Positions 257 through 60,708 of a DNA stretch of 64,000 nucleotides are shown here, one piece after another. The notes under the pieces were generated by a model. That model saw only the letters and a list, made by a program, of their open reading frames with translations. It was not told the DNA's origin and made no database searches. Position 1 is the stretch's first letter. Each line of letters begins with the position of its first letter. The DNA lies in IMG/VR virus record IMGVR_UViG_3300029309_000014, positions 1 to 64,000 of that record; one strand, 5' to 3'. The translations under genes and the position numbers were made by a program. This stretch comes from a virus.

Positions 257-265
257 AATTAAACC

Positions 266-1258: not shown

Positions 1259-1268
1259 TTTTCTGTCC

Positions 1269-1739: not shown

Positions 1740-1750
1740 AGGCTACCTCA

Positions 1751-4011: not shown

Positions 4012-4781
4012 GGTGTGTTTGCTTGCCATCCCATGCCGCTATGATTAGTACAATAGTAATACAGCGTTGGAGCTCCAGAAGCTACTGTTATTTGAGTATA
4101 AGCCCCAGAAGATCCAGGAGTTCCGTTTGTTGTAACTCCTGTTGTGTACTGAGAACCGCCCCCATGCGTGCCGTTTGCAGTTGTGCTAAACCTTAATGGA
4201 TGCCCTGAATTAGAAGAATCGCTTTGATCAAATCTATAAGTGCTACCCTCTGATAAACTTAATAATACATCCGATGTAGCAGTAGAACCATTTATTGCAA
4301 ATTTATTAGAAGAACCCACATTGTAATAAGGATGATTAACTGGATTGCCTCCGACCACTGTTACAGTATATGTTGCTGCTATAGCAGAACCTGTTCCAGA
4401 AGCTGTAACTGTGCCAACTGATCCTGTGCCAGAAACTCCTGTAATAACTGAGGTCACAGGTGTAGTTACATCACCTCCAAATGTAACTGTTCCTACTTGT
4501 CCTGTAATAGATGGGAGGTTCGGCTCTTTTGCAAAAGTATCATCATTAGTGACAGGAAAAGAAACAGTTATGTCTTGTGTTTCAGAAACATCAGGTCTCG
4601 GTTTATATAATGCCTCTGCATCTGCTCCTGTTTGGGTAGGCTCTAATTGTCTTGCTTTAGGTTCATAGCATTCAGGACATACTTTCAGATTATTCCACTC
4701 TTCACGCAAATCGAGGTAGGGGTATCTAAAACCACACCTATCGCAGATACCATAAGAATATTTGCCCAGAGCGTATGCCAT
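4008..4781 (-). CDS. Zinc-ribbon plus cupredoxin-like virion protein (copy A)
   Basis: A 257-residue protein. Near residues 13-16 and 36-39 there are CDRC and CPEC pairs, a classic zinc ribbon. The middle holds short beta repeats (TGQVGTVTFGG, GVSGTGSVGTVT). The last 125 residues resemble a small cupredoxin: YRFDQSDSS, GHPLRFS with a candidate His ligand, then YYYCTNHSGMGW, which supplies Cys, His and Met in C-x2-H-x2-M order like a type 1 copper site. Copper binding is inference. The ATG at 4781 overlaps the preceding stop by one base. In copy B the cupredoxin part is almost unchanged but the zinc-ribbon cysteines are gone. Confidence 0.65.
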   Translation of the reverse strand: MAYALGKYSYGICDRCGFRYPYLDLREEWNNLKVCPECYEPKARQLEPTQTGADAEALYKPRPDVSETQDITVSFPVTNDDTFAKEPNLPSITGQVGTVTFGGDVTTPVTSVITGVSGTGSVGTVTASGTGSAIAATYTVTVVGGNPVNHPYYNVGSSNKFAINGSTATSDVLLSLSEGSTYRFDQSDSSNSGHPLRFSTTANGTHGGGSQYTTGVTTNGTPGSSGAYTQITVASGAPTLYYYCTNHSGMGWQANTP

Positions 4782-5458
4782 CAACCAAACCCATAGTAAT
4801 CTCTTCTAGGAACCAAACTGAGATTAGCTCTATCTACATCTTCATAAGCTGCGCGAGCAAATTCTTCTTCATAAACCGCCTTTAAAATTTGTATTCTATC
4901 AGGAGCTTTTTTCATCGCAAGATAGTAAGCCAATCCCGCAGCTAAACAAGGGTAAAACCTAAAAGGAACATCCAATGTATCTGTTGCGGAGTCTGCATCT
5001 TGTATACGAGTCAACCTATCGTATACTAATGTATACGCCTTATCAGGGGTAGGCCATAATCTGATTTGTGGGGTTATTTGCCTATCCACATACCATTGGC
5101 TCGGTTGCGCCTCTGTATTTTTGCTCGGTATATTTATAAAAGTATCTCTACTTATACGAGTTATTTGAGTGTCCGATTGAGAGGTTCCTGTCCCTGTTCT
5201 TATGACAGCACTCAAAATATCAATCGTATCAGCAGGAAGAGAATATATAGCAGTGCTTGCCGTTATGGAAAGAGTACTTTGCTCTATAGTCCACCTATTT
5301 AAACCCCTATTTGCCCAATCAGCAAATAACAGATTCATAGAACGTTTAGCCGTTTTTAAATCATAACCTGTTCTAACCTCTAAGCCACAACGCTCAAAAG
5401 CTTCCTCAATGTAATCACTTACATCAAGTTCAAAATCTGTGGACTCAGAGGTAGCCAT
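4781..5458 (-). CDS. Tail accessory/head completion protein, gp4-like (copy A)
   Basis: A 225-residue protein starting MATSESTDFELDVSDYIEEAFERCG. The segment LKTAKRSMNLLFADWANRGLNRW, followed by YSLPADTIDILSAVIR and QWYVDRQ, is the pattern of short-tailed phage accessory factors (P22 gp4-like) that stack on the portal. The C-terminal FRFYPCLAAGLAYYLAMK is very conserved. It lies directly upstream of the cupredoxin-like and adaptor genes, fitting a connector role. A diverged, edge-truncated homologue is at 63751-64000. Confidence 0.7.
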   Translation of the reverse strand: MATSESTDFELDVSDYIEEAFERCGLEVRTGYDLKTAKRSMNLLFADWANRGLNRWTIEQSTLSITASTAIYSLPADTIDILSAVIRTGTGTSQSDTQITRISRDTFINIPSKNTEAQPSQWYVDRQITPQIRLWPTPDKAYTLVYDRLTRIQDADSATDTLDVPFRFYPCLAAGLAYYLAMKKAPDRIQILKAVYEEEFARAAYEDVDRANLSLVPRRDYYGFG

Positions 5459-5724
5459 TAGCTATACGGACCTTTGATAACTTTTGGGTTATTTCTGTTG
5501 ACCATACCACCTTTTGACATTTTCATTGGCTTTTTGACCATACCGCCTTTAGCCATTTTTTTCATGTCTTTTTTGACCATACCGCCTTTAGCCATCTTCA
5601 TTTTTTTGACCATACCGCCTTTAGCCATCTTGGTCTTTTTGACCATACCGCCTTTAGCCATTTTTCTTGGCTTTTTTACCATGCCGCCTTTTGCGTACAT
5701 TTTCTTTTTCATCTTTTTCGCCAT
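5458..5724 (-). CDS. Lysine-rich KGGM-repeat basic protein
   Basis: An 88-residue protein made almost entirely of six copies of a MAKGGMVKK-type unit separated by one to five basic residues, ending NPKVIKGPYS. The start chosen is ATG-GCG at 5722-5724, which has GAGGATG upstream; longer readings lack a site. It overlaps the end of the upstream 250-residue gene by about 70 bases in another frame. Such repeats recur in marine phage genomes without known function. The high positive charge and regular glycines suggest nucleic-acid contact or packaging, which is inference. Confidence 0.65.
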   Translation of the reverse strand: MAKKMKKKMYAKGGMVKKPRKMAKGGMVKKTKMAKGGMVKKMKMAKGGMVKKDMKKMAKGGMVKKPMKMSKGGMVNRNNPKVIKGPYS

Positions 5725-6406
5725 TTTCTTCATCCTCTTCTGCGTAAAGATTATCAAAGATCCGATTTACATCCATTGTATAGTCTAAATCAGATTTTGA
5801 ATAGTGAATGTGTTGTGAAGGTTTAAACTTAGGAGCACCCTCACCTGTTACATACCAAGCAGGATGTGTAACCCTCACACGATTATTAGGCAAAGCCACA
5901 ATATTTCCTGTCCACTTACCAGCATCTAATAACTCTAACACATGGCTTTGTTTGTGCTGAGCTGGATCATCTGCTACCTCACTATCTGTATAATCAACAG
6001 TGAAAAAATATTTAGCTGGATAAAATTCACCTTCTATCTTAGCAAGCCACGGACAGGGTTGGGCTCTGTTTAAACTGTATACAGAGTGTGTGTGAGACAT
6101 ACAATCCCAAGGCTGTGCTTGGTATACATCCATCGGTTCAGGCCAGCCCTCAAATGCTGTATCACCGACTAAAGCTGTTATTGGCATCCTTGCCCACATA
6201 GCACCACCATGAACGTTTTCTTCACCAGTTATATCACTTTCACAACCTGTAAATAAAACTTGGAAACTCAAGCATCTATTTGGCATAGTCGTTACGGCTA
6301 TTGCCATTGCATGAAGGAACTCTCCATGGAAGTCTTCGTGATTGCAAGTATACTCTCTCCTCACCCAACATTTGAAGTAAGGGACGTTACTTGTTAAAAA
6401 ACTCAT
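5654..6406 (-). CDS. Conserved marine-phage protein of unknown function
   Basis: A 250-residue protein starting MSFLTSNVPYFKCWVRREY. It is rich in aromatic residues, His and Cys (CNHEDFHGEFLHAM, WDCMSHTHSVYSLNRAQPCPW), then carries TGNIVALPNNRVRVTHPAWY and a very acidic-to-basic tail (EEDEENGEKDEK followed by KRRHGKKAKK). The tail overlaps the KGGM-repeat gene. I recognise it as a type of protein found near head genes in uncultured phages but not its function. It starts four bases inside the neighbour's stop (ATGA). Confidence 0.6.
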   Translation of the reverse strand: MSFLTSNVPYFKCWVRREYTCNHEDFHGEFLHAMAIAVTTMPNRCLSFQVLFTGCESDITGEENVHGGAMWARMPITALVGDTAFEGWPEPMDVYQAQPWDCMSHTHSVYSLNRAQPCPWLAKIEGEFYPAKYFFTVDYTDSEVADDPAQHKQSHVLELLDAGKWTGNIVALPNNRVRVTHPAWYVTGEGAPKFKPSQHIHYSKSDLDYTMDVNRIFDNLYAEEDEENGEKDEKENVRKRRHGKKAKKNG

Positions 6407-6675
6407 GTTTTCTTCTTAGCCTCCTTTTTGGGCTTTTTACCTTTGCCAAAAATATGTGCATCTACCTTGGCTGCTTTGCCACCAGTTAAAACACTATTCA
6501 CTCTAGCCATTGCCCATTGGCTAGGTGTTGTTCCAGGACGATGTCCTGTTCTATACGCTGCCAACCCCTTATTATAAACCCTACCGAGTTGTCCAGCGGT
6601 AACTTTTTTACCTTTTTTCCGTGCCGCTTCAGCTTTTTTTGCGAGTGACTTTTTTGTTGCTGCGCTCAGTGCCAT
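6403..6675 (-). CDS. Small basic protein, DUF5824-like
   Basis: A 90-residue protein. The ATG at 6673-6675 (MALSAATKKSLAKKAEAARK) is preceded by AAAGGGGAAAAA, so longer readings are not needed. After the lysine-rich N-terminus the motif AAYRTGHRPGTTPSQWAMAR is the hallmark of a small family of unknown function (DUF5824-like, from memory). It is one of several overlapping basic proteins between capsid and adaptor genes. Basic charge suggests DNA or RNA binding; no evidence beyond composition. Confidence 0.65.
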   Translation of the reverse strand: MALSAATKKSLAKKAEAARKKGKKVTAGQLGRVYNKGLAAYRTGHRPGTTPSQWAMARVNSVLTGGKAAKVDAHIFGKGKKPKKEAKKKT

Positions 6676-6961
6676 TTTTTCCCCTTTCTTTACGGATACT
6701 ATCTTTACCTTGCCTAAATATTTGAGCCACTTTTTGTTTGCCCATAACCTTGGCTCTTTGCTCACCAACAGTTAAAATCTGTATTTTTCTAGCAAAAGGT
6801 TTATTAACTTTTTTAACTTTTGCCACAGTAGCTCTTGCATCCGCTGGTGTAGCAAATTTTATCCCTACCGTATCCTTTGGATTTTCATCCGTATAAAGCC
6901 TTCTACCAGAACCTTTAGGTTTTTTTCCTGTTCCTTTTTTTGGATCCTGCTTTTTTACCAT
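6629..6961 (-). CDS. Small basic protein of unknown function
   Basis: A 110-residue lysine-rich protein (MVKKQDPKKGTGKKPKGSGRR) whose centre, ENPKDTVGIKFATPADARATVAKVKKV, looks like a small folded domain with an alternating hydrophobic pattern. The C-terminal third is again basic. It overlaps both neighbours in different frames, as is usual in this stretch. Related sequences occur in marine phages without a function. Likely a virion-packaged or nucleic-acid-binding protein by composition only. Confidence 0.55.
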   Translation of the reverse strand: MVKKQDPKKGTGKKPKGSGRRLYTDENPKDTVGIKFATPADARATVAKVKKVNKPFARKIQILTVGEQRAKVMGKQKVAQIFRQGKDSIRKERGKNGTERSNKKVTRKKS

Positions 6962-7076
6962 ACTCTGTAAACTTTTTATTTTTGAGGAGTGTGCTTAGAG
7001 ACTTAGCTTGTTTAGAATGTAATTTAGAGGCTTTTTTTAAACCTTTAACTACTTTTTTTACTCTTTTTTCGTGCAT
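6915..7076 (-). CDS. 53-residue basic protein
   Basis: A short frame reading MHEKRVKKVVKGLKKASKLHS and then a helical stretch KQAKSLSTLLKNKKFTEYGKK. It overlaps its upstream neighbour (7045-7194) by 32 bases and its downstream neighbour (start 6961) by 47. The alternation of Lys with Val, Leu and Ala would form an amphipathic basic helix. It resembles KxSKxHxKQAK proteins known from marine phage sequences. Real expression is likely from the tiling of the operon but is not proven. Confidence 0.5.
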   Translation of the reverse strand: MHEKRVKKVVKGLKKASKLHSKQAKSLSTLLKNKKFTEYGKKAGSKKRNRKKT

Positions 7077-7194
7077 TTTTTTGACCTCTAGATTTATTTT
7101 TAGCAGCAGTAATTATATCCGCACGAGTAATTTTGTTTCGGGGCGGTGCAAAAGCCGCTAACTTTTTTTGCTTTGCAGATAATTTTTTTGCCAT
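7045..7194 (-). CDS. 49-residue basic protein
   Basis: Reads MAKKLSAKQKKLAAFAPPRNK, then TRADIITAAKNKSRG and a KKSKKSS end. It begins two bases after the stop of the 7197-7481 gene with GGGGGTAAAAAGAAATAGTT upstream. About a third of residues are Lys or Arg. Without this and the previous frame the stretch 6962-7196 would be empty in an otherwise gap-free operon, which supports both. Confidence 0.5.
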   Translation of the reverse strand: MAKKLSAKQKKLAAFAPPRNKITRADIITAAKNKSRGQKNARKKSKKSS

Positions 7195-7196
7195 AA

Positions 7197-7481
7197 CTAT
7201 TTCTTTTTACCCCCAAACATTTTGCGAAATTTTTTGGTATGCACAGATTCTTTTGTTTTCCTTCTAGCTCCTGACTTATTAGTATCACTTGGGAAAACAT
7301 AAGCTGAAGGATCCTTTGCTGATTTACGAGCATTACGTTGTATTTCTTTACGACGTTTAGCTTTATCCCCAGAACTTAAACCAGCTAAATATTTGGCTGG
7401 TATTTTACGTTTTTTATTTTTCTTACGGCTCGCAGGGGCTTTTTTAATCTGTTTTGCCATATTACCACGAGTCATTGCCAT
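7197..7481 (-). CDS. Small basic protein, DUF5872-like
   Basis: A 94-residue protein rich in Lys and Arg. Its centre, IPAKYLAGLSSGDKAKRRKEI, and the later KDPSAYVFPSDT match a small basic phage family (DUF5872-like, from memory). Possible starts are 7481 (MAMTRGN) or 7460 (MAKQIKKAP); neither has a strong ribosome site, and a reading up to 7541 overlaps the neighbour further. Function unknown; same basic cluster. Confidence 0.55.
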   Translation of the reverse strand: MAMTRGNMAKQIKKAPASRKKNKKRKIPAKYLAGLSSGDKAKRRKEIQRNARKSAKDPSAYVFPSDTNKSGARRKTKESVHTKKFRKMFGGKKK

Positions 7482-7485
7482 TATA

Positions 7486-7770
7486 TCACCAAGCCTTACA
7501 AGACCAATACCGCGCACTAAATTTATCTTTAGCACTGGCACAATTATGTCTAGCCCTAAAAGATTTACGTCTTGCTGGTTGGTCTTTTTTAATACTCATA
7601 TTAGGATCACCGAAACGCACCAATTTAATCTGGCTACCTTTTTTAGCTAATACGGCAGATTTTTTCTTTGCTCCTGGAGTGCGTTTTGGTTTGTTATATC
7701 CAGGAAACGTCTCCCCCCGATAAGTTAACTTACCGGAAGGAGTGCGTTTTACATCTTTAGTGGTAGCCAT
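7486..7770 (-). CDS. Small basic protein, DUF6321-like
   Basis: A 94-residue protein with the recognisable order KRTPSGKLTYRGETFPGYNKPKR, an AVLAKKGSQIKLVRFGD strand pair, ARRKSFRARHNC and a final ARYWSCKAW. This arrangement is a widespread phage and cyanophage family (DUF6321-like, from memory) with no established role. The conserved Cys, His and Trp near the C-terminus hint at a small metal-binding or nucleic-acid-binding fold. Its ATG overlaps the stop of the 7770-8174 gene by one base. Confidence 0.65.
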   Translation of the reverse strand: MATTKDVKRTPSGKLTYRGETFPGYNKPKRTPGAKKKSAVLAKKGSQIKLVRFGDPNMSIKKDQPARRKSFRARHNCASAKDKFSARYWSCKAW

Positions 7771-8174
7771 TATGCGTATTCCTTACGGACTTGCAGTATA
7801 ATGGTATAACTATCCGCAGAGCTATGGCCTACAGTTGTGAATAAAATGTCACCTGTTTTGCCACTGCCAGCATTATTAGTTATCCCACCAAAAGAGCTAT
7901 AATCATGGTATCCGCTTTGGTTCTCACCTAGTTCAATCGCAATAACATTTGATGTAGCATCAAAAAGCATTTGGACTTTCATGCCGTTGCACTGCCACCA
8001 TATTTTTTCTATAGAGCATCCTGTGCAAGTTTGTTTATTGCCACTAACCGATAAAGAGCTAACGTCTACTTTTGCTACAGCACTTTCGCCGGAACCATCG
8101 GAGATGTTTGTAAACTTTAATACAGCAGTGCGCTCACCGTCTATCAAAGTTTGTGAAGTGACTGCATCAGCCAT
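7770..8174 (-). CDS. Putative virion (decoration-type) protein
   Basis: A 134-residue beta-rich protein starting MADAVTSQTLIDGERTAVLKFTNISDGSGE. The pattern TLIDGxRxAVLKFTNISDGSGE and the later YHDYSSFGGI are typical of structural proteins of marine phages encoded next to the capsid gene. Two close cysteines (CTGC) lie in the middle. It follows another structural gene with 12 bases between them and starts after a clear AGGAGAATGTT site. Head decoration or a small fibre are both possible. Confidence 0.6.
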   Translation of the reverse strand: MADAVTSQTLIDGERTAVLKFTNISDGSGESAVAKVDVSSLSVSGNKQTCTGCSIEKIWWQCNGMKVQMLFDATSNVIAIELGENQSGYHDYSSFGGITNNAGSGKTGDILFTTVGHSSADSYTIILQVRKEYA

Positions 8175-8186
8175 AACATTCTCCTA

Positions 8187-8807
8187 TTAGTAAACTGAGT
8201 ATTCTAGCTCCACAGTAAATCTGCCAGCGGTGACATCGGCATTTACAGTTGTTGTAGCTCTAGCATACAAATGTACGTTTGCGACAGCCGCAGTAATGTT
8301 TGGCACAAAAATATGATAATTACCTGCGGTGTCGTTAAAGTTCACATCAATCTCAGTAATAGATTGAGTTGCGCTCAACTGCTCGTTAAAAGAGGTAACA
8401 CCAGCACCAACAATTTCAGTGCCTGAAACAGCAGCATTAGTAGCTGTCCCACTTGTAGAACTCAAAGCAAGGTTTCCAGCAAGAGTTTGACCAGCAGCAG
8501 TTGTAATGCCAATTAATGCACGATGAATAAATATTTTGCTCGGTGTAACCAGATCATCAGGGGCATCTACATTTAAAGTGCCAAGCTCTACAAGACAATC
8601 ACCATCTGCATAAGCTGTTGAAGCAGCGTTTGTTGCTGCTAGAGTACCAGCAAAAGACTGTATCTTGCGTGTCCCCATTGAAACAATCTGGCCTGTGGCA
8701 TTAACAGAAAAACCTGTTTGCGTAACCGCACCAGTTGTGCTGCTTTCATTGATTACATTGAAACCGCCCTTTGAACGGACTGGTCCCGAAAAAGTGGTAG
8801 TAGCCAT
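8187..8807 (-). CDS. Putative virion structural protein
   Basis: A 206-residue protein (MATTTFSGPVRSKGGFNVI) rich in Thr, Ala and Asn with alternating hydrophobic residues suggesting beta structure (IFIHRALIGIT, GNYHIFVPNITAAV). N-termini reading TTFSGPVRSxGGF are common in phage structural genes placed next to capsid genes. It is the first gene after the strong terminator at 8874-8904, so it needs its own promoter or read-through. No enzymatic motif. Confidence 0.6.
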   Translation of the reverse strand: MATTTFSGPVRSKGGFNVINESSTTGAVTQTGFSVNATGQIVSMGTRKIQSFAGTLAATNAASTAYADGDCLVELGTLNVDAPDDLVTPSKIFIHRALIGITTAAGQTLAGNLALSSTSGTATNAAVSGTEIVGAGVTSFNEQLSATQSITEIDVNFNDTAGNYHIFVPNITAAVANVHLYARATTTVNADVTAGRFTVELEYSVY

Positions 8808-8873
8808 GTCGATCTCCTGTCTTGGCTAATGTCAGTCACACTATGTAACTGTCAGGATGGAAAAACTATAAAC

Positions 8874-8904
8874 AAAAAAAGGGCGGCTCGCAAGCCGCCC
8901 TTTT
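8874..8904 (-). terminator. Strong intrinsic terminator after major capsid gene
   Basis: A perfect eight-base GC-rich stem, GGGCGGCT paired with AGCCGCCC around a four-base loop, lies at 8881-8900. On the minus strand it is followed by seven T residues. It begins about 15 bases downstream of the capsid stop codon, the ideal layout for limiting read-through after a highly transcribed gene. Confidence 0.9.
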
Positions 8905-8916
8905 GAATATTTTATG

Positions 8917-9825
8917 TTACGCTCCCGGAGAGGCGAAAACGCAACGTGGGTCAGATACTCCAAAGCTATAACGCTCACGAGCTTTGTACCGCACGTTACC
9001 TGTATCAAAATCGCCTTCCATAGCAGTTTGCATCGGTGTACGAACAAAATGCTTGAAGCCGTTTGGTGCATCCGTTTTAATGAAAAATGCGTCCGTATCG
9101 GTTAAAAAGTGGTTGACCACATAACCTTCAGGTAGCATACCCATATTACGGAGGGCGTTGATATCGTTGTCTGCTGTTGCAGTACGCAGATTCGAAGCCA
9201 TCAACCGCTCTGCCACAAATTGCAATGCTGGTGGAATAATCATCTTCATACCGCGAAGTGCAATCTTAAGACCGCGCTCATCGATAAAAGCTGAAATATC
9301 AATCAGTGATTGCTCAAGTGACGTTTCATTCAAGTCAGCCGCAGTTGTCAACTCATTACGGAAGTTGCCACCAGCAGTGGTTGGATGATCTGTTGCACAC
9401 AATTCTTTACCATCACCAAGTGTAAAGCTAGAATCAAAAGCATTGTTCAGCACTGCTGCTGCTTTGACTTGCTTTGTATTAGCCATGGAACGAGCCAATG
9501 CACGAGTATAACGAGAGCTGAGCTTGTCGTAAAGGTTATCCTCAACGGCTTCTTCAGTGATCGAAAACGCAAGTGCGATTGTTTCATGTGTGTAACGAGC
9601 GGTAAATGCTTCATTAGCAATATCAAATGATACCGCAGCACCTTCTTGTTTAATGGGTGCTGAGCCAAAGCCAGCGAGCATTACCTCTTCTTCGAACGCA
9701 CGATCAGAGTTTTCTGAATCAAAAATTTCAGCATGCTCATTTTCGTAACGATCATACTCCATACCAAACAGAGCGTTTAGTCCAGGCTCTAGTTCTTTAA
9801 GGAGTTGGGATCTTGCAATAGCCAT
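8917..9825 (-). CDS. Major capsid protein (Mu gpT-like/HK97 fold)
   Basis: A 302-residue protein. The N-terminus (LLKELEPGLNALFGMEYDRYENEHAEIF) and the block FEEEVMLAGFGSAPIKQEGA are characteristic of a major head subunit family seen in marine and Mu-like phages. The central TARYTHETIALAFSITEEAVEDNLY and the later LKIALRGMKMIIPPALQF fit the HK97-type spine and A-domain. It lies between a small head protein and a strong terminator, with scaffold upstream, the standard capsid gene order. No long N-terminal delta domain is present, consistent with a separate scaffold gene. Confidence 0.85.
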   Translation of the reverse strand: MAIARSQLLKELEPGLNALFGMEYDRYENEHAEIFDSENSDRAFEEEVMLAGFGSAPIKQEGAAVSFDIANEAFTARYTHETIALAFSITEEAVEDNLYDKLSSRYTRALARSMANTKQVKAAAVLNNAFDSSFTLGDGKELCATDHPTTAGGNFRNELTTAADLNETSLEQSLIDISAFIDERGLKIALRGMKMIIPPALQFVAERLMASNLRTATADNDINALRNMGMLPEGYVVNHFLTDTDAFFIKTDAPNGFKHFVRTPMQTAMEGDFDTGNVRYKARERYSFGVSDPRCVFASPGA

Positions 9826-9838
9826 ATCTAATTACTCC

Positions 9839-10462
9839 TTATAGACCAGTGGTTGCAGTATGGAATGGGAGGTTCAATTTAACAAGAAGTGTAACACCAG
9901 CAGATGCTACATCAATCTCATCAAATGGATCTTTAATTCCCACAATACGGAAGTTATCCGTAGCCGTAGTTGCACCAGCAGTTGCCACAGAAACTTCACC
10001 GATAGAAATACCAGTTGAACCGTTCTGTGAACCAAAGTTTACCCCTTCTGCATTAGAATGGATCAACGCAGTCGCTGTTGCAATATTAGTGAGTGAAGCA
10101 TCAGCTTTGACCTCATAAACTTGGTGGGGGTTATCATAAACAAAAACCCTCGCTTCGCTATTTGATTTCAAAGAAGATGTTCCAGGATAGTTATTATCAA
10201 ACACTGTTTCACCAGCAGTGTTTACATACTGACATCCTGCCATAACACCTAGGATAGCAACACTACCACCATCTGCCGCACTTACATCTACAAGTCCATT
10301 AGTAAGCGGGATCACCATATCACCTTGAAAAATAGATGATGAAGAACCAGCCGTTCCATTTACTTGCACGAGATAAGACGTCAAACCGTTGGAGTTCGCT
10401 GCGCCACCTAGAAGATTATGCGGACGCAAGCCAAATGGGGCATCAAGATTTGTACCAGCCAT
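9839..10462 (-). CDS. Head decoration/stabilisation protein
   Basis: A 207-residue protein starting MAGTNLDAPFGLRPHNLLGGA. The N-terminus NxxAPFGLRPV-type and the following FQGDMVIPLTNGLV, with VAILGVMAGCQY, match small head proteins encoded immediately upstream of the capsid gene in many marine podoviruses. It has a clear ribosome site (AAGAGG). Probably a capsid-bound decoration protein; direct evidence would be virion proteomics. Confidence 0.65.
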   Translation of the reverse strand: MAGTNLDAPFGLRPHNLLGGAANSNGLTSYLVQVNGTAGSSSSIFQGDMVIPLTNGLVDVSAADGGSVAILGVMAGCQYVNTAGETVFDNNYPGTSSLKSNSEARVFVYDNPHQVYEVKADASLTNIATATALIHSNAEGVNFGSQNGSTGISIGEVSVATAGATTATDNFRIVGIKDPFDEIDVASAGVTLLVKLNLPFHTATTGL

Positions 10463-27436: not shown

Positions 27437-27910
27437 CTATGCACACAGGTCTAACATAAAGTCAGGGATAGGTCTATTAGTCCACTTACAAAATTTTGAC
27501 TTTTCCCCACGGTAGTAATCACGGTACGCAACCATAACATCATGGTGTTTATACTCATCTGGCATAGCTTGTGGAAATTTAGTAAACCCACGAGCAGTAA
27601 GAGCAGGAGGCGCACATCGCACCGCATACAATACTGATTCGGACTTATGTACATTGCCGTATCGGTAAGTGTATTCTTTGAATAGGTGATAACCCACACT
27701 CCAAGCTAAACGGTAATTATCTACAGTTTGGCCTACCCATAGAGTGCAGGGGTGTTTTTCATGTACAGATAGATAAGGTGCTTCATTGCCATGTTGCCAA
27801 TGAGTAGTGCAAAGCATCTGCACCATCTCAAGTGGCATTTTGACAACATGCTTATCACAGTGCATTTGAGCGCACTGCTGAGGATCCATAGATAACCAGA
27901 ATATATTCAT
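27437..27910 (-). CDS. DenV-like pyrimidine-dimer DNA glycosylase
   Basis: A 157-residue protein. The ATG at 27908-27910 has GGAG nearby and gives MNIFWLSMDPQQCAQMHCDKH. The order CDKHVVKMPLEMVQMLCTTHW, then HPCTLWVGQTVDNYRLAW and YTYRYGNVHKSE, ending YRDYYRGEKS, matches a phage and large-virus family related to endonuclease V of T4 (DenV). It would cut the glycosidic bond at damaged or modified pyrimidines, relevant next to the predicted base-modification cluster. The family link is by memory; function unverified. Confidence 0.65.
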   Translation of the reverse strand: MNIFWLSMDPQQCAQMHCDKHVVKMPLEMVQMLCTTHWQHGNEAPYLSVHEKHPCTLWVGQTVDNYRLAWSVGYHLFKEYTYRYGNVHKSESVLYAVRCAPPALTARGFTKFPQAMPDEYKHHDVMVAYRDYYRGEKSKFCKWTNRPIPDFMLDLCA

Positions 27911-28155
27911 GGCAGTCTGTGCTCCGCAATAGGTAAGCTGACTGTGAGTAAGCGGTTGGGTGGCTGACATATAGCATACATGAGTACCCTACGCTGTGGC
28001 TCCTCAGCTTTTAGTTTGCGTATTGCCATAGTGCAATCCTGTAAATCATCATAACGCCATGTGCTGTATTTGGCACAGCCATGGAACTCTGTAATTGTGT
28101 AATAAACTACATGGTCAAACATATAGTCTTCATATTGTTGCCAATCCATAAGCAA
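27907..28155 (-). CDS. Hypothetical protein
   Basis: An 82-residue protein (MLMDWQQYEDYMFDHVVYYTI, then EFHGCAKYSTWRYDDLQDC). An in-frame ATG at 28149 (MDWQQYED) is also possible and sits nearer the GCAGAAAGG leader. It overlaps the glycosylase by four bases. A TATAAT element lies about 25 bases upstream. Confidence 0.5.
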   Translation of the reverse strand: MLMDWQQYEDYMFDHVVYYTITEFHGCAKYSTWRYDDLQDCTMAIRKLKAEEPQRRVLMYAICQPPNRLLTVSLPIAEHRLP

Positions 28156-28237: not shown

Positions 28238-28765
28238 TCAAACGCTTAAATTATAATGGATTAGCACTTTATTCACTGGTTCAAAATCAGCTAAATCAGA
28301 AAACTTTTTATAGAGATAGTTGATGCCTGTGTGCATTATCACTTTCATCTGGTCACTTTGATTTGAATGGCGATGGGAATAGAGTACGAGTTCAAGCATA
28401 TCTGCCATTTTCAATCTATTCTTTTCTTCTGGAGTGAGAACAAATATCAATCCAAGGTCATCCATCACTTTCTTTTCAGCATCTTCAAATGCTTTATGTA
28501 CCTCAGGAAAAGACCATTTAGCTGTGGCTGGTATATCACCAAGAATGAGTTCAGGTACATCATGGTACAATGAAGCCATAATCAATTGTTTTGTACTATC
28601 AGGCCAAAGCTGGTCAATCAATATACTTACTGCGTATGAATGTGCTCCCACTGTCTGTCTCTCTGCTTGCATGGCAACTGTGTGGAAGCGCAATAAGAAC
28701 TGAGCATCCCACGCTGTTGTCAAAGTTTTAATGTTCGGTATTGTCTTGCATTGGCGTTGCGCCAT
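28238..28765 (-). CDS. HD-domain deoxynucleotidase, YfbR-like
   Basis: A 175-residue protein with an HD metal-binding core: RQTVGAHSYAV (first His), MASLYHDVPELILGD (HD pair), then KMADMLELVLYSH. YfbR-type enzymes remove the 5' phosphate from deoxynucleoside monophosphates. It overlaps the polymerase end by 38 bases and has its own GAGGGG site. In this neighbourhood it could tune the dNMP pool so that a modified nucleotide replaces the normal one; that link is inference. Confidence 0.75.
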   Translation of the reverse strand: MAQRQCKTIPNIKTLTTAWDAQFLLRFHTVAMQAERQTVGAHSYAVSILIDQLWPDSTKQLIMASLYHDVPELILGDIPATAKWSFPEVHKAFEDAEKKVMDDLGLIFVLTPEEKNRLKMADMLELVLYSHRHSNQSDQMKVIMHTGINYLYKKFSDLADFEPVNKVLIHYNLSV

Positions 28766-30647
28766 CGCTTACCCCTCTTAACCACGGCTTATCACTAAAT
28801 GTTTTCTTTGCTTCGCCCCAACTCGGACCAAACTCAGCATCTACCACACTTGGTATTTGCATATCAACACATGTCTGCATTATTTCTTTTATTTTCAATC
28901 CATTATCCGGATCACCAACTGATATATCTAATTCATCATGCACTTGTATGAGGGGTACTATCCCTTCTTTATGCAAAGCTACCATCGCAGCTTTTGTCTG
29001 ATCGGCAGCACTGCCCTGTATCAATCGGTTAAGTGCTTTATAAGTGAAGGCACGTTTGATAGCTGGACCATGCTCTGCATATGCATCCTCATATTTCTGT
29101 GGTTTATACAATCCATACGCATTTGGTTCCCACTTATCAAACCTACATTTGCGACCAAGCAGGGTACGGATAACACCTTTATTAGAAGCACGGTTGACTA
29201 CATAATCAGCAAGCTGTTGAACAAAGGGGACTTTACCGTGGTACTCAGCAAATAAATCTTTAGCATCTTCAAACTCTAAACCAAGCTGCTCTGCCAGTTT
29301 ATTCTTACCCATCCCATAAAACAGACCAAGGTTTATATCTTTAGCTTGTTTGCGTGGCACTCCTACAATATCGGCAGCCATCTGGTGAAAGTCTGTATTA
29401 GCATCTACATTGTATTGGTCGGCAAACTCTTGTGCGCCTGTCAATTTAAGTAGACTTGCATAATGAACAACGAGCCGTGGTTCTTGGCTACTGTAATCAA
29501 AAGCCCCCCACAGTTCACCTTCTTCTGGTAAAAACAATCCGCGTATCATCGGACCAATCTCAGCATTCCTTGCTGGCACTTGCTGTAGATTAGGATTGCT
29601 ATAACTAAAACGACCTGTAACCGTCCCACCATCATCACTGCGAAGGCTGTGTGCTTCCGCATGAATGCGACCATTATGTTGGTGCTTTATAATAGTATCG
29701 ATAAAAGTAGTTCTAGCTTTATTCAGCTCACGAGCTCGAACCACAGCCTGAGGTAATGAATGGGCATGGTTAGCTAGAAAATTTTTAGTAAAGCTAGGCT
29801 GTCCTGATTTGGGCGTTTTAGGGTAAGTCAACCCATTTGCATCAAATGCTTTAGCAATACTAGCTGCTGCCCATATATCAATATTACTGCCACCAGCTTC
29901 TTGTAATACTTTTTCTTCTTCAGCTTGCAGATACTGTTTTAACTCTTCAGCTTTACCAAGGTCTACACGCACACCTTTTTTACGCATGTCAAATACAACT
30001 TTGAGGACATTTAACTCAAGGTCAAATATATCTCCTACATCTTCTTTCTGTATGAGACCCTTAAAGAACTGCCATAGCTTCAGGGTAAGTGCCGCATCCT
30101 GTTCTGCATATGCTCCAACAAAATGAGCTGGGAGTTTATACATCTCACTCTTAGCATTTACACCAAAAGAGTTAGCTGCTTCATATAAATCCCTTTCACT
30201 CTTACGTTCATTAAGGTAATCGCGACCAAGAGCATTTAAGGCATAACTAAATCTGTTTTCATCAAGTAATGCGGCAACAACCATTGTATCAACAATACGA
30301 CCTTTTACTTCTATACCTTCTGCCCATAACCATCCGAGGTCATACATAGCATTATGCATAATGTAATCGCGCTCAATAGAGCATACATCAGCCAGCCAGC
30401 GGAGGGTTTGCTTTGCATCTAAATTACTGCCATTTTCATGCCTGATTGGGAAATACCAAGAAGCACCATCTACAGCTACAGCGACGCCAATTACATAACC
30501 ATCATTGCGAGGCCAGCCACTACCCCGAGAAGTAAGGTTAGGGTCACAAGTTTCTAAATCAATAGATACTTCCCTAGCCTCTGCTAAGTTGGGATAGCCA
30601 TCAGGCATAACCCACTCAGTCGGAGGTGTGAATAGAGGAAACTGCAT
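28728..30647 (-). CDS. polA: DNA polymerase A with 3'-5' exonuclease
   Basis: A 639-residue T7-like replicative polymerase. Exonuclease residues: D30 and E32 in SIDLET, the DTMVVAALLDENRF segment, and YAEQDA. Polymerase motifs: WGAFDYSSQEPRLVVHYA (motif A), RKQAKDINLGLFYGMGKNKLA (motif B) and IQVHDELDISV (motif C). No thumb insertion for thioredoxin is obvious. It copies the genome; the primase and helicase are encoded at 37-40 kb. Its C-terminal 38 bases overlap the HD gene. Confidence 0.9.
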   Translation of the reverse strand: MQFPLFTPPTEWVMPDGYPNLAEAREVSIDLETCDPNLTSRGSGWPRNDGYVIGVAVAVDGASWYFPIRHENGSNLDAKQTLRWLADVCSIERDYIMHNAMYDLGWLWAEGIEVKGRIVDTMVVAALLDENRFSYALNALGRDYLNERKSERDLYEAANSFGVNAKSEMYKLPAHFVGAYAEQDAALTLKLWQFFKGLIQKEDVGDIFDLELNVLKVVFDMRKKGVRVDLGKAEELKQYLQAEEEKVLQEAGGSNIDIWAAASIAKAFDANGLTYPKTPKSGQPSFTKNFLANHAHSLPQAVVRARELNKARTTFIDTIIKHQHNGRIHAEAHSLRSDDGGTVTGRFSYSNPNLQQVPARNAEIGPMIRGLFLPEEGELWGAFDYSSQEPRLVVHYASLLKLTGAQEFADQYNVDANTDFHQMAADIVGVPRKQAKDINLGLFYGMGKNKLAEQLGLEFEDAKDLFAEYHGKVPFVQQLADYVVNRASNKGVIRTLLGRKCRFDKWEPNAYGLYKPQKYEDAYAEHGPAIKRAFTYKALNRLIQGSAADQTKAAMVALHKEGIVPLIQVHDELDISVGDPDNGLKIKEIMQTCVDMQIPSVVDAEFGPSWGEAKKTFSDKPWLRGVSDGATPMQDNTEH

Positions 30648-30789
30648 CGTTTACTTTTACCTTCATAGGTTGGTTACATTTAGAGCAGTGAGGCCATTTG
30701 TTTTTGAGTTTGCGAAAAGTCATTACCCTCTTTTCCCTACCACACTCACACTCGGCTAATACTTCTCTATCCAGCTTTTCGTTTACCAT
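30616..30789 (-). CDS. Small zinc-ribbon protein overlapping polymerase start
   Basis: A 57-residue frame starting MVNEKLDREVLAECECGREK and containing CEC and later CSKC, four cysteines suited to one zinc. It overlaps its upstream neighbour by 22 bases and the polymerase start by 32. The TGA falls inside the polymerase coding region. A GAGGTA sits right before the ATG. The real-gene case rests on the cysteine pattern and gap-filling. Confidence 0.55.
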   Translation of the reverse strand: MVNEKLDREVLAECECGREKRVMTFRKLKNKWPHCSKCNQPMKVKVNDAVSSIHTSD

Positions 30790-31180
30790 TACCTCGCATT
30801 CGCACTTCTGCTTCTACAAGAAATAAATACCGACGTAAGTCACGGATATCATCAAGGATACCTTCCTCACGCATATCATCAAAGGCAGCTTTAAATACAT
30901 CATAATTATATTCTGTAACTTGTTTTTCAAGCCTATCCCATTTACGAGCCAGCATCATAAAAGCACCAACACCGCCACGCTGCTTCCAGCTATCACCGTA
31001 AGACTGCTCTGAATTATGTAACCCTTCTACATCTTGATTAGCTAACCCAACGATATTATTAACAATAGGGCTATAATCATCAGGGGTAATATCACCGTTT
31101 TTTGCCATATTTGTATACTCCTCCCAATCTAATTCCTGCATACGCCTTTTCATGTATTGTTCGTGGCTTTCTCTTGCCAT
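30767..31180 (-). CDS. Nmad1 (DUF1599)-like nucleotide-modification-associated protein
   Basis: A 137-residue helical protein. The centre SYGDSWKQRGGVGAFMMLARKWDRLE and the C-terminal GILDDIRDLRRYLFLVEAE define the Nmad1 (DUF1599) family, predicted from its neighbourhoods to act with modified-nucleotide synthesis; it resembles MazG-type all-alpha nucleotide hydrolases. It has a strong AGGAG site and overlaps the thymidylate synthase-like gene by 31 bases, a linkage seen in other phages. Function not experimentally established. Confidence 0.7.
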   Translation of the reverse strand: MARESHEQYMKRRMQELDWEEYTNMAKNGDITPDDYSPIVNNIVGLANQDVEGLHNSEQSYGDSWKQRGGVGAFMMLARKWDRLEKQVTEYNYDVFKAAFDDMREEGILDDIRDLRRYLFLVEAEVRMRGNGKRKAG

Positions 31181-32178
31181 TTATCTCTCCTACGTTCTAA
31201 CCATTCCCAAGTAGCTAAATGCCAATCATCGGGTTTTATATCTGCACAATGGTCAAAAGCTAAAGCTAATTCTTTAGCTTTCCATGCTTGCCATACTCGG
31301 TGCATAGGTTGTGCCAAATCGGAGAAACAGGAATTTATATATGGTCTTGGCCTTTCAGTATCTTCCATAAACCATTCTAACTCTTCATCAAATGATTCTA
31401 TATTATTTACAAGAGCATCTGGCCTAATCATACGCACATTGTATGATTCATAATCAGGGTTCATACCCTCTAGCTTTTTTAATACTTCAGTATAAGCATG
31501 AAGGTTATTACTAAACTGTGTATAGATACCAACACTCGCGCCAATGCGAGAGGCTATATACTCTTGAAGAATGGACATATGGACAGCATTAGCTCCCAAT
31601 GCACCCCAGATCATATCATTACTACGGTTACATACTGTCATATCCAATATATTATCACGCACATTAAAATAGATATGAGTATTACAGGGATGGTCTTTAC
31701 AGCTATTACTCATCCGTAAATCACCCTCAGCATCCCACATTGCTAGAACTGCTCGTCTATCATTTGTATGTGTCATCAACCTGTGGATGATTACATCAAT
31801 CTGATCACGATGAAAGTAATTACGCCAACGGTATCCGTATGCTCCCTGTAATATTTTACCATCATCACTATACTCACCCATCCGTGCATTATAGCGTTGT
31901 ATCCACTCTAAATCATTACGCCCTGCTAACATCCACAGGCTTTCCATAAAGTGAAATATTGGGTTTGCATCACGTTCGGGGTAAAACAGTACACGCTCGC
32001 GTGGGTTATTGTAGACAATAGCACATGGTTCACGGAACTCAATTGCTTTACCATTACGAGTTTCTACTTCTACACCATTAGCTTCTAATGCTTGCTTCAC
32101 AACAAACAATGCTTCGCTTACATTTCCTACGGTGAAAGTATGCACCCCTCGCATGGGTGCTTTGCCATATAATGCCAT
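31150..32178 (-). CDS. Thymidylate synthase or dUMP hydroxymethylase
   Basis: A 342-residue protein of the thymidylate synthase fold. Visible landmarks: FMESLWMLAG with the catalytic-loop Glu, LQGAYGYRWRNYF, HPCNTHIYF (nucleophile Cys), CNRSNDMIWGALGAN (phosphate-binding Arg-Ser and a pyrimidine-binding Asn one residue further than in bacterial ThyA), and NNLHAYTE (His and Tyr). Retained Asn suggests a uracil substrate. It lacks the usual short hydrophobic C-terminus and ends in a Trp-rich tail. Members make dTMP or 5-hydroxymethyl-dUMP; sequence alone does not decide. It starts the base-modification cluster. Confidence 0.75.
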   Translation of the reverse strand: MALYGKAPMRGVHTFTVGNVSEALFVVKQALEANGVEVETRNGKAIEFREPCAIVYNNPRERVLFYPERDANPIFHFMESLWMLAGRNDLEWIQRYNARMGEYSDDGKILQGAYGYRWRNYFHRDQIDVIIHRLMTHTNDRRAVLAMWDAEGDLRMSNSCKDHPCNTHIYFNVRDNILDMTVCNRSNDMIWGALGANAVHMSILQEYIASRIGASVGIYTQFSNNLHAYTEVLKKLEGMNPDYESYNVRMIRPDALVNNIESFDEELEWFMEDTERPRPYINSCFSDLAQPMHRVWQAWKAKELALAFDHCADIKPDDWHLATWEWLERRRDKWQEKATNNT

Positions 32179-32206
32179 ATTTAACCGCCTTTCTATGGGG
32201 TTTTAA

Positions 32207-32222
32207 AGCTGCTACAGCAGCC
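32207..32222 (-). terminator. Weak hairpin between radical SAM and thymidylate synthase genes
   Basis: A six-pair stem (GGCTGC/GCAGCT with a wobble) and TGTA loop is followed by TTTAAAA on the minus strand. It is short, so partial attenuation is as likely as full termination. The conserved CATAGAAAGG leader of the next gene begins about 10 bases later. Confidence 0.35.
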
Positions 32223-32261
32223 TGATTTAATTTGCCCTACCCTATTACTAAAAGCAACCCT

Positions 32262-33281
32262 CTAGCTTTCTGAGTAGCCTGTAATAAAGTCAAAATGTTT
32301 CTTAACTCTCTTAGTATAAGTGCCTCCTCTTAACGCCTCCTTGATTGCAAGCGTTGTTTCCTCAGTAGGCTCGGGTAATGCCTTGCGTCCCATGCGGTCA
32401 GGTAACAATCCATTACGCAGAGTGGTATTGTCACAACCGTTACAAGGACCGAAATCACGTTGCCCATGATACAATTTTGTTCTCGCTGCATGAAATGCTT
32501 CCCCCTGCCATACTTCTTCCATTGGTACATCAACTACATTGCCACATTTGTACCATCCAGGCCAATCGTTACAGCAAACAGCGACATTACCATCCCAACG
32601 TATAGACATTTCACGGAAAGGTTTAGCGCAGCGTTTACCATCTTGTTCATGGTTTAGATGGAAAGCGTTACCAGCGTGGTTACTGACTTGGGCATGGGTT
32701 CCGCTTGTAGCGAGCGTAAGATCCATTCCAACAACGATAATATGTTCTGTAACTTTTCGTCGTTGGTGAGGGTTTGCGTTGCGCTCTGCAGGGTATTCGT
32801 ATACAGGGTATGGACCATTATATCTCTCCTTTATTTTATCTACTATTTTGATACGATCATAATTATCAAGAAACAAAACATTAAGTCCTGCTTCCATCAG
32901 TTGGTTGACACTTTTTTGAGTGTCGCGTAAAAGACCACCGCCATTGCTTGTCATCATAAGAGAAGTTTTTGGCAACTCCTGACGGAATAGTCTAATCATG
33001 TCTATGAAGAAAGGGTGCATAGTCGGCTCACCGTGCATGGCAAACTCTAGCCGTGGGTTCCATCCTGCTTCTTTTATACGGTCACAGATAGACCTTGCTC
33101 TTTCTATTGTTAAATATCTGTAAGGGGCAGATGCTTTACCATGTATATTTTCTGGACCATCTGCTTCATTTTCACGTATAGATTGTATGCCGCAAAAAGA
33201 ACAAGCAAGGTTACACCCCTCTGTTAATTCAATCTGAATAGAGTTGGGTGGGTCTTGGTGATAGTTAGATTGCACCGCCAT
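32262..33281 (-). CDS. Radical SAM/SPASM enzyme
   Basis: A 339-residue enzyme from the ATG at 33281 (MAVQSNYHQDPPNSIQIE). C23, C27 and C30 form the CxxxCxxC cluster (CNLACSFC) for the S-adenosylmethionine-binding iron-sulphur centre; MHGEPTMHP is the GE motif and SLMMTSNGG an SAM-contacting strand. The C-terminal SPASM-type part has CAKPF, CCNDW, CGNV and CNGC for extra clusters. Such enzymes do difficult C-H chemistry. Placed between a synthase and a glycosyltransferase, it may alter a DNA base or its side group, though peptide modification is the commoner SPASM role. Confidence 0.75.
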   Translation of the reverse strand: MAVQSNYHQDPPNSIQIELTEGCNLACSFCGIQSIRENEADGPENIHGKASAPYRYLTIERARSICDRIKEAGWNPRLEFAMHGEPTMHPFFIDMIRLFRQELPKTSLMMTSNGGGLLRDTQKSVNQLMEAGLNVLFLDNYDRIKIVDKIKERYNGPYPVYEYPAERNANPHQRRKVTEHIIVVGMDLTLATSGTHAQVSNHAGNAFHLNHEQDGKRCAKPFREMSIRWDGNVAVCCNDWPGWYKCGNVVDVPMEEVWQGEAFHAARTKLYHGQRDFGPCNGCDNTTLRNGLLPDRMGRKALPEPTEETTLAIKEALRGGTYTKRVKKHFDFITGYSES

Positions 33282-34050
33282 CTTTAGCTGCCTTTCTCCA
33301 TTGAACACGAACATCCCAACGTGTTTTCATACCCTCCCATCCTGTTTTAGTTTCTTTCTGCACTGCTTTTACATACAGTGGAAACTCTTCAGCTAATGCC
33401 CTACTTGCCTTTTCTTGTAACTCTGCATTACGGTATGAACTACAACCACCAGCCGCACCAGAAGCACCACGTTGATCCCATGTCCAATCTACAATTACAG
33501 CATTACGATGCCCTGATTGAAACAGTTTAAGGGTAACATAATAATCCTCCATTAAGTCCATAGTATCGTATCTTATGCCTAGCCCATGAATAATTTCAGG
33601 ACGTATAGCATGAACAGCATTTTGTCGCATACCGTACTTAATTGTATCAGGAAAATGTTTATCGTTCATTTGTCGTGGGCTAAGACCAACATGGGTATGG
33701 TTCATTAACAACCACTCCATACGCTCCCATAATTCGTGCATTTCTTCTTGGTTTGTTTTTCTTAGATTTGGAATATCCCCAGATATACGCCTCCCAAATA
33801 TAAGATCATCATCCAAAACAATAATTTTATCATGCCCTGCCTCCATAGCGTGTTCTAATATGAACTGCCGTACATTATTGATTCCTTTAATTTCACCGCG
33901 ATTTATACAATCACGCCCCTGTTTGGTATGCCAATTTATTTCTTCTTGTGGGCAAACAAGAGCAGCATACTCTCGGGCTTCCGGACCAATACTATCCCAA
34001 GTAATTTGGTTATTCATCCTACCCCTTGTTGGTATATATATTGGTATCAT
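33265..34050 (-). CDS. GT-A glycosyltransferase, TET-associated (TAGT)-like
   Basis: A 261-residue protein beginning MIPIYIPTRGRMNNQ, a Rossmann strand of a GT-A fold. Later GRDCINRGEIKGINNVRQFIL and the IIVLDDDLIFGRR segment supply the DxD-type metal site; GLSPRQMNDKHF and TMDLMEDYYVTLKLFQSGH complete the pattern. It matches the phage family predicted to glycosylate hydroxymethylated cytosine in DNA in TET-linked clusters. No TET dioxygenase is present here, so the substrate may be a hydroxymethyl-pyrimidine made by the synthase-like gene. Confidence 0.65.
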   Translation of the reverse strand: MIPIYIPTRGRMNNQITWDSIGPEAREYAALVCPQEEINWHTKQGRDCINRGEIKGINNVRQFILEHAMEAGHDKIIVLDDDLIFGRRISGDIPNLRKTNQEEMHELWERMEWLLMNHTHVGLSPRQMNDKHFPDTIKYGMRQNAVHAIRPEIIHGLGIRYDTMDLMEDYYVTLKLFQSGHRNAVIVDWTWDQRGASGAAGGCSSYRNAELQEKASRALAEEFPLYVKAVQKETKTGWEGMKTRWDVRVQWRKAAKDGGAI

Positions 34051-34355
34051 ATCTCATCCTCATCAAATCTTACTTGGCCTGTCATAATAGCTTCTTCTAG
34101 CTCTTCATCTGTAAGGGTGCGTACATCTTCTAACTGATTCCATACTTTAGGGTTTTTCACTTTTGGTTTTAATTTTCTTTTCTTTGGTTTTACCAATTTC
34201 AGTTTGGGTGGCTCTTTGCTCTTGGGTGGCTCTAATACTTCCAATGTCCGATAGCTGTACTTGCATTTCTGACAAATCCTCTTCCTCCGTATCGTGCTTT
34301 CGTAGGATCGACTGTCTACGACGGAAGATCTGCCATTGCATTTTGGACACAACAT
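34047..34355 (-). CDS. NrdR-like zinc-ribbon protein
   Basis: A 102-residue protein. The first 45 residues (MLCPKCNGRSSVVDSRSYES then RRKRICQKCKYSYRTLEVLE) copy the zinc ribbon of the ribonucleotide reductase regulator NrdR, but the ATP-cone that follows in NrdR is missing, replaced by a lysine- and proline-rich tail and an acidic end. A GGAGGTG site precedes the ATG. May bind DNA or recruit the host reductase regulon; inference. Confidence 0.65.
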   Translation of the reverse strand: MLCPKCNGRSSVVDSRSYESTIRRKRICQKCKYSYRTLEVLEPPKSKEPPKLKLVKPKKRKLKPKVKNPKVWNQLEDVRTLTDEELEEAIMTGQVRFDEDEI

Positions 34356-34357
34356 AT

Positions 34358-35254
34358 TTACGCCACCTCCCCATTAACAGCCTCCAGCATTGAACCTTGT
34401 AATCCATTATACTTACTACGAGGAGTGCCTTGACCAAGACGTACACGCTCATACTTATCCCACTCGCAAAGGCTGTGTTCAATACAACGCATATCCACAG
34501 CCAGAGTCGGGATGTGATTGCCAAGATAACGGTGCGAATCTTCGAGTAAATCGTGCATCTCCCTATTGCTTTGATAAGCACCTAACGCTTTTGTAAGAGG
34601 TCTATCATGGATTCTATTGAGGCCTCGTTTTGCTCCTGGACCTGCATTTGCCCAACTAAAACGGTCTTTTGCCTTGTCCAATACAGGTGTGTAGTTGAGG
34701 TCGGTAACCACCTCGTATGACATAAAACCTCCTCCTCCCCACCCTTTATACTTAGCCATCGCTTCATGTACCGCTTGGAGCGACTGCGTTTCGGTGGCAA
34801 TCTGCGCCAACGCTTCTTTGTTCTCCCATATTGGCGAAAGGAAATAGTCAACTACTACCTCTGATTTTGGTAACTTGAGTCCTTGGTTAGTGATTATATA
34901 AGCACCAGTAAATGTCCGTAAACCCTGCTCAAGCCGAGCCTTTATCAAGTCTTTAGTAAAAGTAGGGTTAAAATCGTGCGACCAACCATGTGCATCAGCA
35001 AACTCACTAGTCCCAACCATACGAAACATACAGCAATTAAATATAATTTCACCATGTGGACGGTTACTATTTGGCTTAGTAAAATTCTGTCTCATCCACA
35101 CAGTAACCCTATCATTCTCACGGAAAGGATTAGTAAACTTATAATCGCGTAATATAGGGTCATCAGTCCAAGGGGCTGGTTGCCCCTTGGCTCGTTTTTG
35201 GTAAATAGCGTGACGCTCGTTTATCCAGTAGCAGAACCTTTCTATGTTCTCCAT
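34358..35254 (-). CDS. HMUDK_hel/aGPT-PPlase-like DNA base-modification protein
   Basis: A 298-residue mostly helical protein. The N-terminal order FCYWINERHAIYQKRAKG, PWTDDPILRDYKFTNPFREND and RVTVWMRQNF matches the helical domain associated with 5-hydroxymethyl-dU DNA kinases and the predicted glutamyl/putrescinyl-thymine pyrophosphorylases of hypermodified phages. A later GGGGFMSYEVVTDL and the C-terminal CEWDKYERVR fit as well. No P-loop kinase motif is present, so this is a stand-alone version that might act on a modified pyrimidine in DNA. Next in line are the zinc ribbon and glycosyltransferase. Confidence 0.65.
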   Translation of the reverse strand: MENIERFCYWINERHAIYQKRAKGQPAPWTDDPILRDYKFTNPFRENDRVTVWMRQNFTKPNSNRPHGEIIFNCCMFRMVGTSEFADAHGWSHDFNPTFTKDLIKARLEQGLRTFTGAYIITNQGLKLPKSEVVVDYFLSPIWENKEALAQIATETQSLQAVHEAMAKYKGWGGGGFMSYEVVTDLNYTPVLDKAKDRFSWANAGPGAKRGLNRIHDRPLTKALGAYQSNREMHDLLEDSHRYLGNHIPTLAVDMRCIEHSLCEWDKYERVRLGQGTPRSKYNGLQGSMLEAVNGEVA

Positions 35255-59214: not shown

Positions 59215-59223
59215 GATTTAGTC

Positions 59224-60216: not shown

Positions 60217-60226
60217 TTTTCTGTCC

Positions 60227-60697: not shown

Positions 60698-60708
60698 AGG
60701 TTACCTCA

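Follow-up and report, generated by a model that had tools for sequence, protein, structure and literature searches.

A viral gene block predicted to glycosylate 5-hydroxymethyl-deoxyuridine in DNA, with a glycosyltransferase in place of the kinase

Gene content of the locus

The window analysed here is a 64,000-nucleotide stretch of DNA from a marine phage (positions 1 to 64,000 of IMG/VR record IMGVR_UViG_3300029309_000014) and forms part of a 69,322-base virus record, the whole of which was searched for absent families. Between positions 28238 and 35254 its minus strand carries a contiguous block of genes that a first-pass annotation, made from the sequence alone, had taken for a DNA base-hypermodification cluster. 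In its 5′ to 3′ direction the block begins with HMUDK_hel, a protein of the 5-hydroxymethyl-deoxyuridine (5-hmdU) DNA kinase helical-domain family, also called aGPT-PPlase1 (34358..35254, 298 aa; Pfam PF18723, E 1.6e-50). It continues with an NrdR-type zinc ribbon protein (34047..34355, 102 aa; PF22811, E 2e-10), a TAGT-family (GT-A) glycosyltransferase predicted to act on 5-hmdU DNA (33265..34050, 261 aa; PF20691, E 8.9e-15) and a radical S-adenosylmethionine (SAM) enzyme with a SPASM/twitch-type C-terminal domain, a predicted sugar editor (32262..33314, 350 aa; PF13186, 1.2e-11, and PF04055, 2.4e-9). These are followed by a thymidylate synthase (TS)-family enzyme, a predicted dUMP 5-hydroxymethylase (31150..32178, 342 aa; PF00303, 2.8e-20; phrog_5131, 1.3e-104), a conserved 137-aa protein with a YGDSWKxRGG...RKWDRL motif (30767..31180), the family A DNA polymerase PolA (28728..30647; PF00476, 5.8e-58) and a YfbR-like HD-domain 5′-deoxynucleotidase (28238..28765; PF12917, 1.4e-8; phrog_6047, 3.1e-34). 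Several of the genes overlap: the TAGT and radical SAM genes by 50 bases, the zinc ribbon and TAGT genes by 4, and the TS and 137-aa genes by 31.

All proteins of the block save the 137-aa one fell into named families above curated cutoffs, and Pfam and PHROG matches bear out the first-pass calls for HMUDK_hel, the zinc ribbon, TAGT, radical SAM/SPASM, TS, PolA and HD proteins at these positions. The same annotation had named the 137-aa product Nmad1, which did not hold: the protein had no Pfam or NCBIfam match above cutoff, and PF07659 (DUF1599) matched neither the source record nor 17 related records. The Pam3 cluster contains a close homologue of the 137-aa protein (E 2e-42), and a weak match (E 0.0066) was found to the C-terminal extension of the TS of Brevibacterium phage LuckyBarnes. 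The zinc ribbon is loosely attached to the module; it shows 50-70% identity between genomes whose adjoining genes share 86-100%, and in phages with the glycosyltransferase GT-B1 (described below) its gene is placed after that for HD.

The P-loop 5-hmdU DNA kinase (PF18748) was not found in the whole record or in 13 sister records, and the amino acid:DNA transferase (ADDT, PF18724) was absent anywhere in the record; both searches were positive in the positive controls, phages M6 and Sonora. TET/JBP dioxygenase (PF12851) was absent from all 18 records searched, which included the source record and its 13 sisters. The earlier statement that neither a TET enzyme nor a P-loop hydroxymethyl-dU kinase is visible in the block could therefore be extended to the entire record, and HMUDK_hel is present here without the kinase from which its family takes its name. 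Its PF18723 domain spans residues 4-273 of 298, and its AlphaFold model (mean pLDDT 89.5) matches other members of the family with a probability of 1.00, among them helical-domain proteins from PhiW-14 and RSL1 as well as SP10's fused 5-hmdU DNA kinase. In BFVD the model also gave a weaker match to an amino acid:DNA transferase (E 4.6e-4) and a non-significant one to a viral endonuclease III (E 0.16); a fold search against PDB gave no significant match, only weak ones to endonuclease III and the MagIII glycosylase. Base-flipping by HMUDK_hel is therefore no more than hinted at, with slight help from the BFVD matches.

An exchange slot between HMUDK_hel and TS

Viral contig scans returned relatives at 57-100% identity, nearly all of which keep the order HMUDK_hel, slot, TS, 137-aa protein, PolA and HD. 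The order is not due to chance, since it persists in dozens of independent contigs, at protein identities as low as ~57%. What varies is the slot itself, which holds TAGT and the radical SAM gene in the clade of the window and, in other clades, one of two putative GT-B-like glycosyltransferases (GT-B1 or GT-B2) or a gene for a 338-aa protein. GT-B1 (~424 aa) matches Pfam glycosyltransferase family 4 at 3.9e-4 and Alr3699 in PDB at 9.8e-4; GT-B2 (~330 aa) has no family match and, in a profile comparison, aligns with GT-B1 over its full length (E 0.0011, but a probability of only 21%); the 338-aa protein has no known relatives. The contigs L094 and L096 share 95.9% identity across 10.9 kb to the last base of HMUDK_hel, after which L094 carries GT-B1 and L096 carries GT-B2, and they realign just before TS; the slot gene has been exchanged cleanly. 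In a PolA tree the genomes with TAGT and the radical SAM gene form one supported clade, and those with GT-B1 and GT-B2 are interspersed. Two contigs considered as having an empty slot (L125 and L126) proved to carry GT-B1 ~7 kb upstream.

We also noted that an FkbM-type methyltransferase gene adjoins TS in some slot variants (L109, L116, L124 and L136); its product possibly caps the sugar.

Mutual exclusion of kinase and glycosyltransferase

The set was widened by scans seeded with HMUDK_hel from M6 and LuckyBarnes, which after removal of near-duplicates gave 59 clusters. An automatic count found the kinase within 6.5 kb in 13 of these, a slot-type gene in 40 (TAGT 14, GT-B1 20, GT-B2 4, 338-aa gene 2), both in none and neither in 6. 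Four of the six remaining clusters were placed by hand: L243 has the kinase at the other end of its contig, L125 and L126 have GT-B1, and L239 has a gene weakly resembling glycosyltransferase family 4 (GT-4); the other two are truncated (L229) or were not placed (L244). The final tally was 14 of 59 with the kinase, 43 with an exchange-slot gene (40 automatic and 3 by hand) and none with both. Fisher's exact test on these counts (0/14/43/2) gives 9e-12 for clusters that are related by descent, and because of that relatedness we weighed recurrence in separate lineages instead.

The pattern occurs in the group of the window as against that of M6, in L239 within the M6 lineage, in LuckyBarnes and in Microbacterium phages. 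L239 had been considered as an M6 relative without a glycosyltransferase, and was found to encode, at positions 1266-2898 and directly upstream in the kinase's place, a weakly GT-4-like protein and a PIG-L-family deacetylase beside HMUDK_hel and TS. This arrangement suggests a deacetylated amino sugar on DNA, and with such a deacetylase L239 would seem to be another instance in which a sugar is transferred and then edited. In LuckyBarnes two TAGTs are present and the kinase is missing. In the cultured Microbacterium phages Golden and Koji a kinase-like P-loop gene lies immediately upstream of HMUDK_hel and the region contains no TAGT, whereas Alakazam, Nucci, Mercedes and Chepli lack this gene and have one TAGT or two in the interval from TS to the next P-loop gene; HMUDK_hel of Golden and that of Alakazam are 63% identical. 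The Golden gene is called kinase-like because of where it lies, because it has a P-loop and because it weakly matches a profile (E 0.0024). A further P-loop gene, annotated as 'thymidylate kinase' or 'AAA-ATPase', is common to Golden, Koji, Alakazam and others and has no PF18748 match. Pikmin encodes at the TAGT position a DDD-motif protein that matches none of the profiles used.

Judged by gene content, HMUDK_hel pairs with predicted glycosyltransferases in place of a kinase in several unrelated phage groups, and the feature is wider than this phage. The simplest reading is that HMUDK_hel would recognise or present 5-hmdU in DNA, because the protein stays constant while its catalytic neighbour changes. 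These observations also bear on whether TAGT and the radical SAM enzyme belong to the pathway at all. Phages encode surface-modifying glycosyltransferases and SPASM radical SAM enzymes often mature peptides, so the pair might be passengers that act on a host surface glycan or peptide and lie by chance inside a DNA-modification operon. The genes are, however, tightly packed or overlapping within the HMUDK_hel-TS interval, one glycosyltransferase is swapped for another at exactly that position, and kinase and glycosyltransferase exclude each other, with recurrence in unrelated phages; we regard the passenger explanation as very improbable, the least probable of those weighed here.

The modified base

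The catalytic Cys165 of the TS-family enzyme and its Asn197, the residue by which TS recognises the uracil of dUMP, are invariant in all 15 relatives, M6 included. Its best solved match is the CMP hydroxymethylase MilA, which has Asp at the position of Asn197. Together with the characterised TAGT of T6, which works on glucosyl-5-hydroxymethylcytosine (glucosyl-hmC; PMC13216743), this match would favour a cluster that makes glycosylated 5-hydroxymethylcytosine in the manner of T6 and no uracil derivative. Against such a product stand the uracil-type Asn itself, the membership of HMUDK_hel in 5-hmdU systems, and the 43% identity of the enzyme to the TS of M6, whose DNA contains 5-(2-aminoethyl)dU made from 5-hmdU (PMC6449724). 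We consider a cytosine product improbable. The product of the TS-family enzyme is likely 5-hydroxymethyl-dUMP, since the enzyme has the uracil-type Asn and the modified base of M6 derives from 5-hmdU; hydroxymethylase and methylase are not separable by sequence. The 'hydroxymethyl-pyrimidine' of the first-pass annotation can accordingly be narrowed to uracil as the most likely base, with cytosine less so.

The TAGT and radical SAM/SPASM pair

The TAGT protein combines its PF20691 match with a DxD metal motif (conserved LDDDL) and a conserved ED motif, and its PHROG match is phrog_842, beta-glucosyl-HMC-alpha-glucosyltransferase (1.8e-43). It is predicted to move a sugar onto the hydroxymethylated base in DNA. 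In the radical SAM protein the radical-cluster cysteines C34-x3-C38-x2-C41 (CX3CX2C) are invariant in 16 sequences, as are the auxiliary-cluster cysteines C229, C247, C248, C257, C291 and C294. Its profile matches BtrN, the nearest solved relative, at 8.7e-11 over the C-terminal domain; BtrN uses radical chemistry to dehydrogenate a cyclitol intermediate of antibiotic synthesis. No bacterial relatives of the radical SAM protein were found in a scan of genome contigs. Among its nearest annotated phage relatives, at ~23% identity, is one radical SAM protein of Campylobacter phage CPt10 (L007), which at positions 4291-9846 has several radical SAM genes in a row and an amidinotransferase-like gene.

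TAGT and the radical SAM gene co-occur in every locus of the window group that spans both, and within this group the radical SAM gene is seen only with TAGT and is missing where another glycosyltransferase occupies the slot. Because the enzyme tracks TAGT and not the core genes, and because its nearest solved relative is BtrN, we propose that it would edit the sugar after transfer, although this is the least certain step of the pathway. An enzyme acting on the base or nucleotide before glycosylation, for example by isomerisation like the M6-pathway radical SAM enzyme, with TS, HMUDK_hel and TAGT in the same roles, would find its precedent in M6, where a gene annotated as a DNA repair photolyase, taken to be the M6 radical SAM gene, adjoins the kinase and ADDT. 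Lee et al. (2021) are said to have found radical SAM isomerases acting on thymidine hypermodifications in that pathway. The SPASM/twitch domain of the window enzyme, with its relationship to BtrN, and its loss with TAGT when the slot is otherwise filled speak against action before glycosylation, which we think unlikely, if less so than a cytosine product. The different route put forward in the first-pass annotation is supported in that a hydroxymethyl-pyrimidine would be formed as a nucleotide and glycosylated later, and is revised as to the radical step, which is likelier to come after glycosylation than before it.

Proposed pathway

Taken together, the block is probably a thymine-replacement hypermodification cassette, in which a 5-hmdU nucleotide would be made, built into DNA and glycosylated by TAGT with HMUDK_hel, and the sugar edited by the radical SAM enzyme. 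In a first step the TS-family enzyme would make 5-hydroxymethyl-dUMP, with the HD nucleotidase cutting back the normal thymidine nucleotides, and in a second PolA would build 5-hmdU into phage DNA. HMUDK_hel would then serve TAGT as a 5-hmdU DNA-recognition module, and TAGT would put a sugar on the hydroxymethyl oxygen; comparative genomics shows the pairing of HMUDK_hel with glycosyltransferases and the exchange with the kinase, and the catalysis is predicted. Finally, the sugar now on the DNA may be altered by the co-inherited radical SAM/SPASM enzyme, through a reaction such as dehydrogenation or epimerisation. With the glycosyltransferase position acting as an exchange slot, related phages would bear different sugars on the same base.

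Several points weigh against this pathway. The Pfam name of HMUDK_hel comes from kinases, and a role in glycosylation goes beyond it. As to the slot genes, sequence matches support GT-B1 weakly as a glycosyltransferase, GT-B2 more weakly and the 338-aa gene not at all, and the exclusion counts lack phylogenetic independence. The structure model of the radical SAM protein is of low confidence (pLDDT 57.6) and too poor to use. LuckyBarnes and L223 have TAGT without this radical SAM gene, and in MW202897 TAGT and TS are present but HMUDK_hel was not found in the stretch examined, so neither the radical SAM enzyme nor HMUDK_hel is obligatory for TAGT. A literature search found no nucleoside data for any kinase-less HMUDK_hel phage.

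A broader proposal, which we hold tentatively and as somewhat less than an even chance, is that HMUDK_hel is a general platform presenting 5-hmdU in DNA to interchangeable partners, either the kinase or diverse glycosyltransferases, and so provides a switchable thymine-sugar 'serotype' that includes sugars rebuilt on DNA by the radical SAM enzyme. To our knowledge, radical editing of a DNA-borne sugar would, if true, be new chemistry. The exchange of kinase and glycosyltransferase would, if true, also amount to a genetic rule predicting sugars versus amino acids on phage thymine, and that nearly identical genomes have exchanged their glycosyltransferase suggests selection by defences recognising particular modified bases. 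The exchange is testable in cultured Microbacterium and Brevibacterium phages, the former (Alakazam, L253; Golden, L254; and L256-L260) offering a laboratory system.

Flanking sequence and the source record

Positions 27437-27970 of the window encode a phrog_624 member ('DNA binding protein') of 177 aa, which follows the cluster in most relatives. The same structural genes are present at both ends of the contig (window positions 1-4373 and 58959-63331) with only 81.5% nucleotide identity, so two strains of a circular ~59 kb genome have probably been joined in this record, making its ends chimeric. Despite these apparently chimeric ends, the cluster itself is reproduced in many independent contigs.

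Comparison with known systems

We found no description in the literature of kinase/glycosyltransferase exclusion, slot exchange or the radical SAM link, within an incomplete coverage of the central papers. Glycosylated thymine in phage DNA has rarely been characterised, the cases found being SP-15, in which sugars on thymine-type bases are known (PMC5977210), and YerA41, in which they are probable (PMC9023294). TAGT occurs without an alpha- or beta-glucosyltransferase in 288 of 753 phage genomes, where its role has been called open (PMC13216743); the proposed pathway, if true, would account for some of these genes.

The terminase (TerL) of the record is ~62% identical to those of HTVC023P-type pelagiphages, which are by this measure a related lineage (PMC9599517). 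According to the relevant passages of that paper, these phages have TS and aGPT-PPlase1 near PolA, and some have a putative TAGT-type gene and a 5′-deoxynucleotidase in the region. Those passages do not mention the missing kinase, slot exchange or a mechanism, and the main text does not mention radical SAM. The T6-like TAGT shares PF20691 and the DxD-type motif with the window protein but puts a second sugar on glucosyl-hmC (PMC13216743), whereas the window TAGT would add the first, in a uracil-type pathway. TET/JBP-TAGT systems have a TAGT-family glycosyltransferase in common with the cassette, which lacks TET/JBP and is predicted to hydroxymethylate at the nucleotide stage. The thymidine hypermodification cluster of Pseudomonas phage M6 and its relatives shares the TS, HMUDK_hel (34% identity), an HD nucleotidase (M6 gp59 also belongs to phrog_6047) and PolA, with Pam3 gp33/gp34-type genes nearby, and the order of these genes is similar. 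M6 differs in having the P-loop 5-hmdU kinase, ADDT and a pyridoxal-phosphate (PLP)-type enzyme, whereas this phage is without kinase and ADDT and its group has glycosyltransferases.

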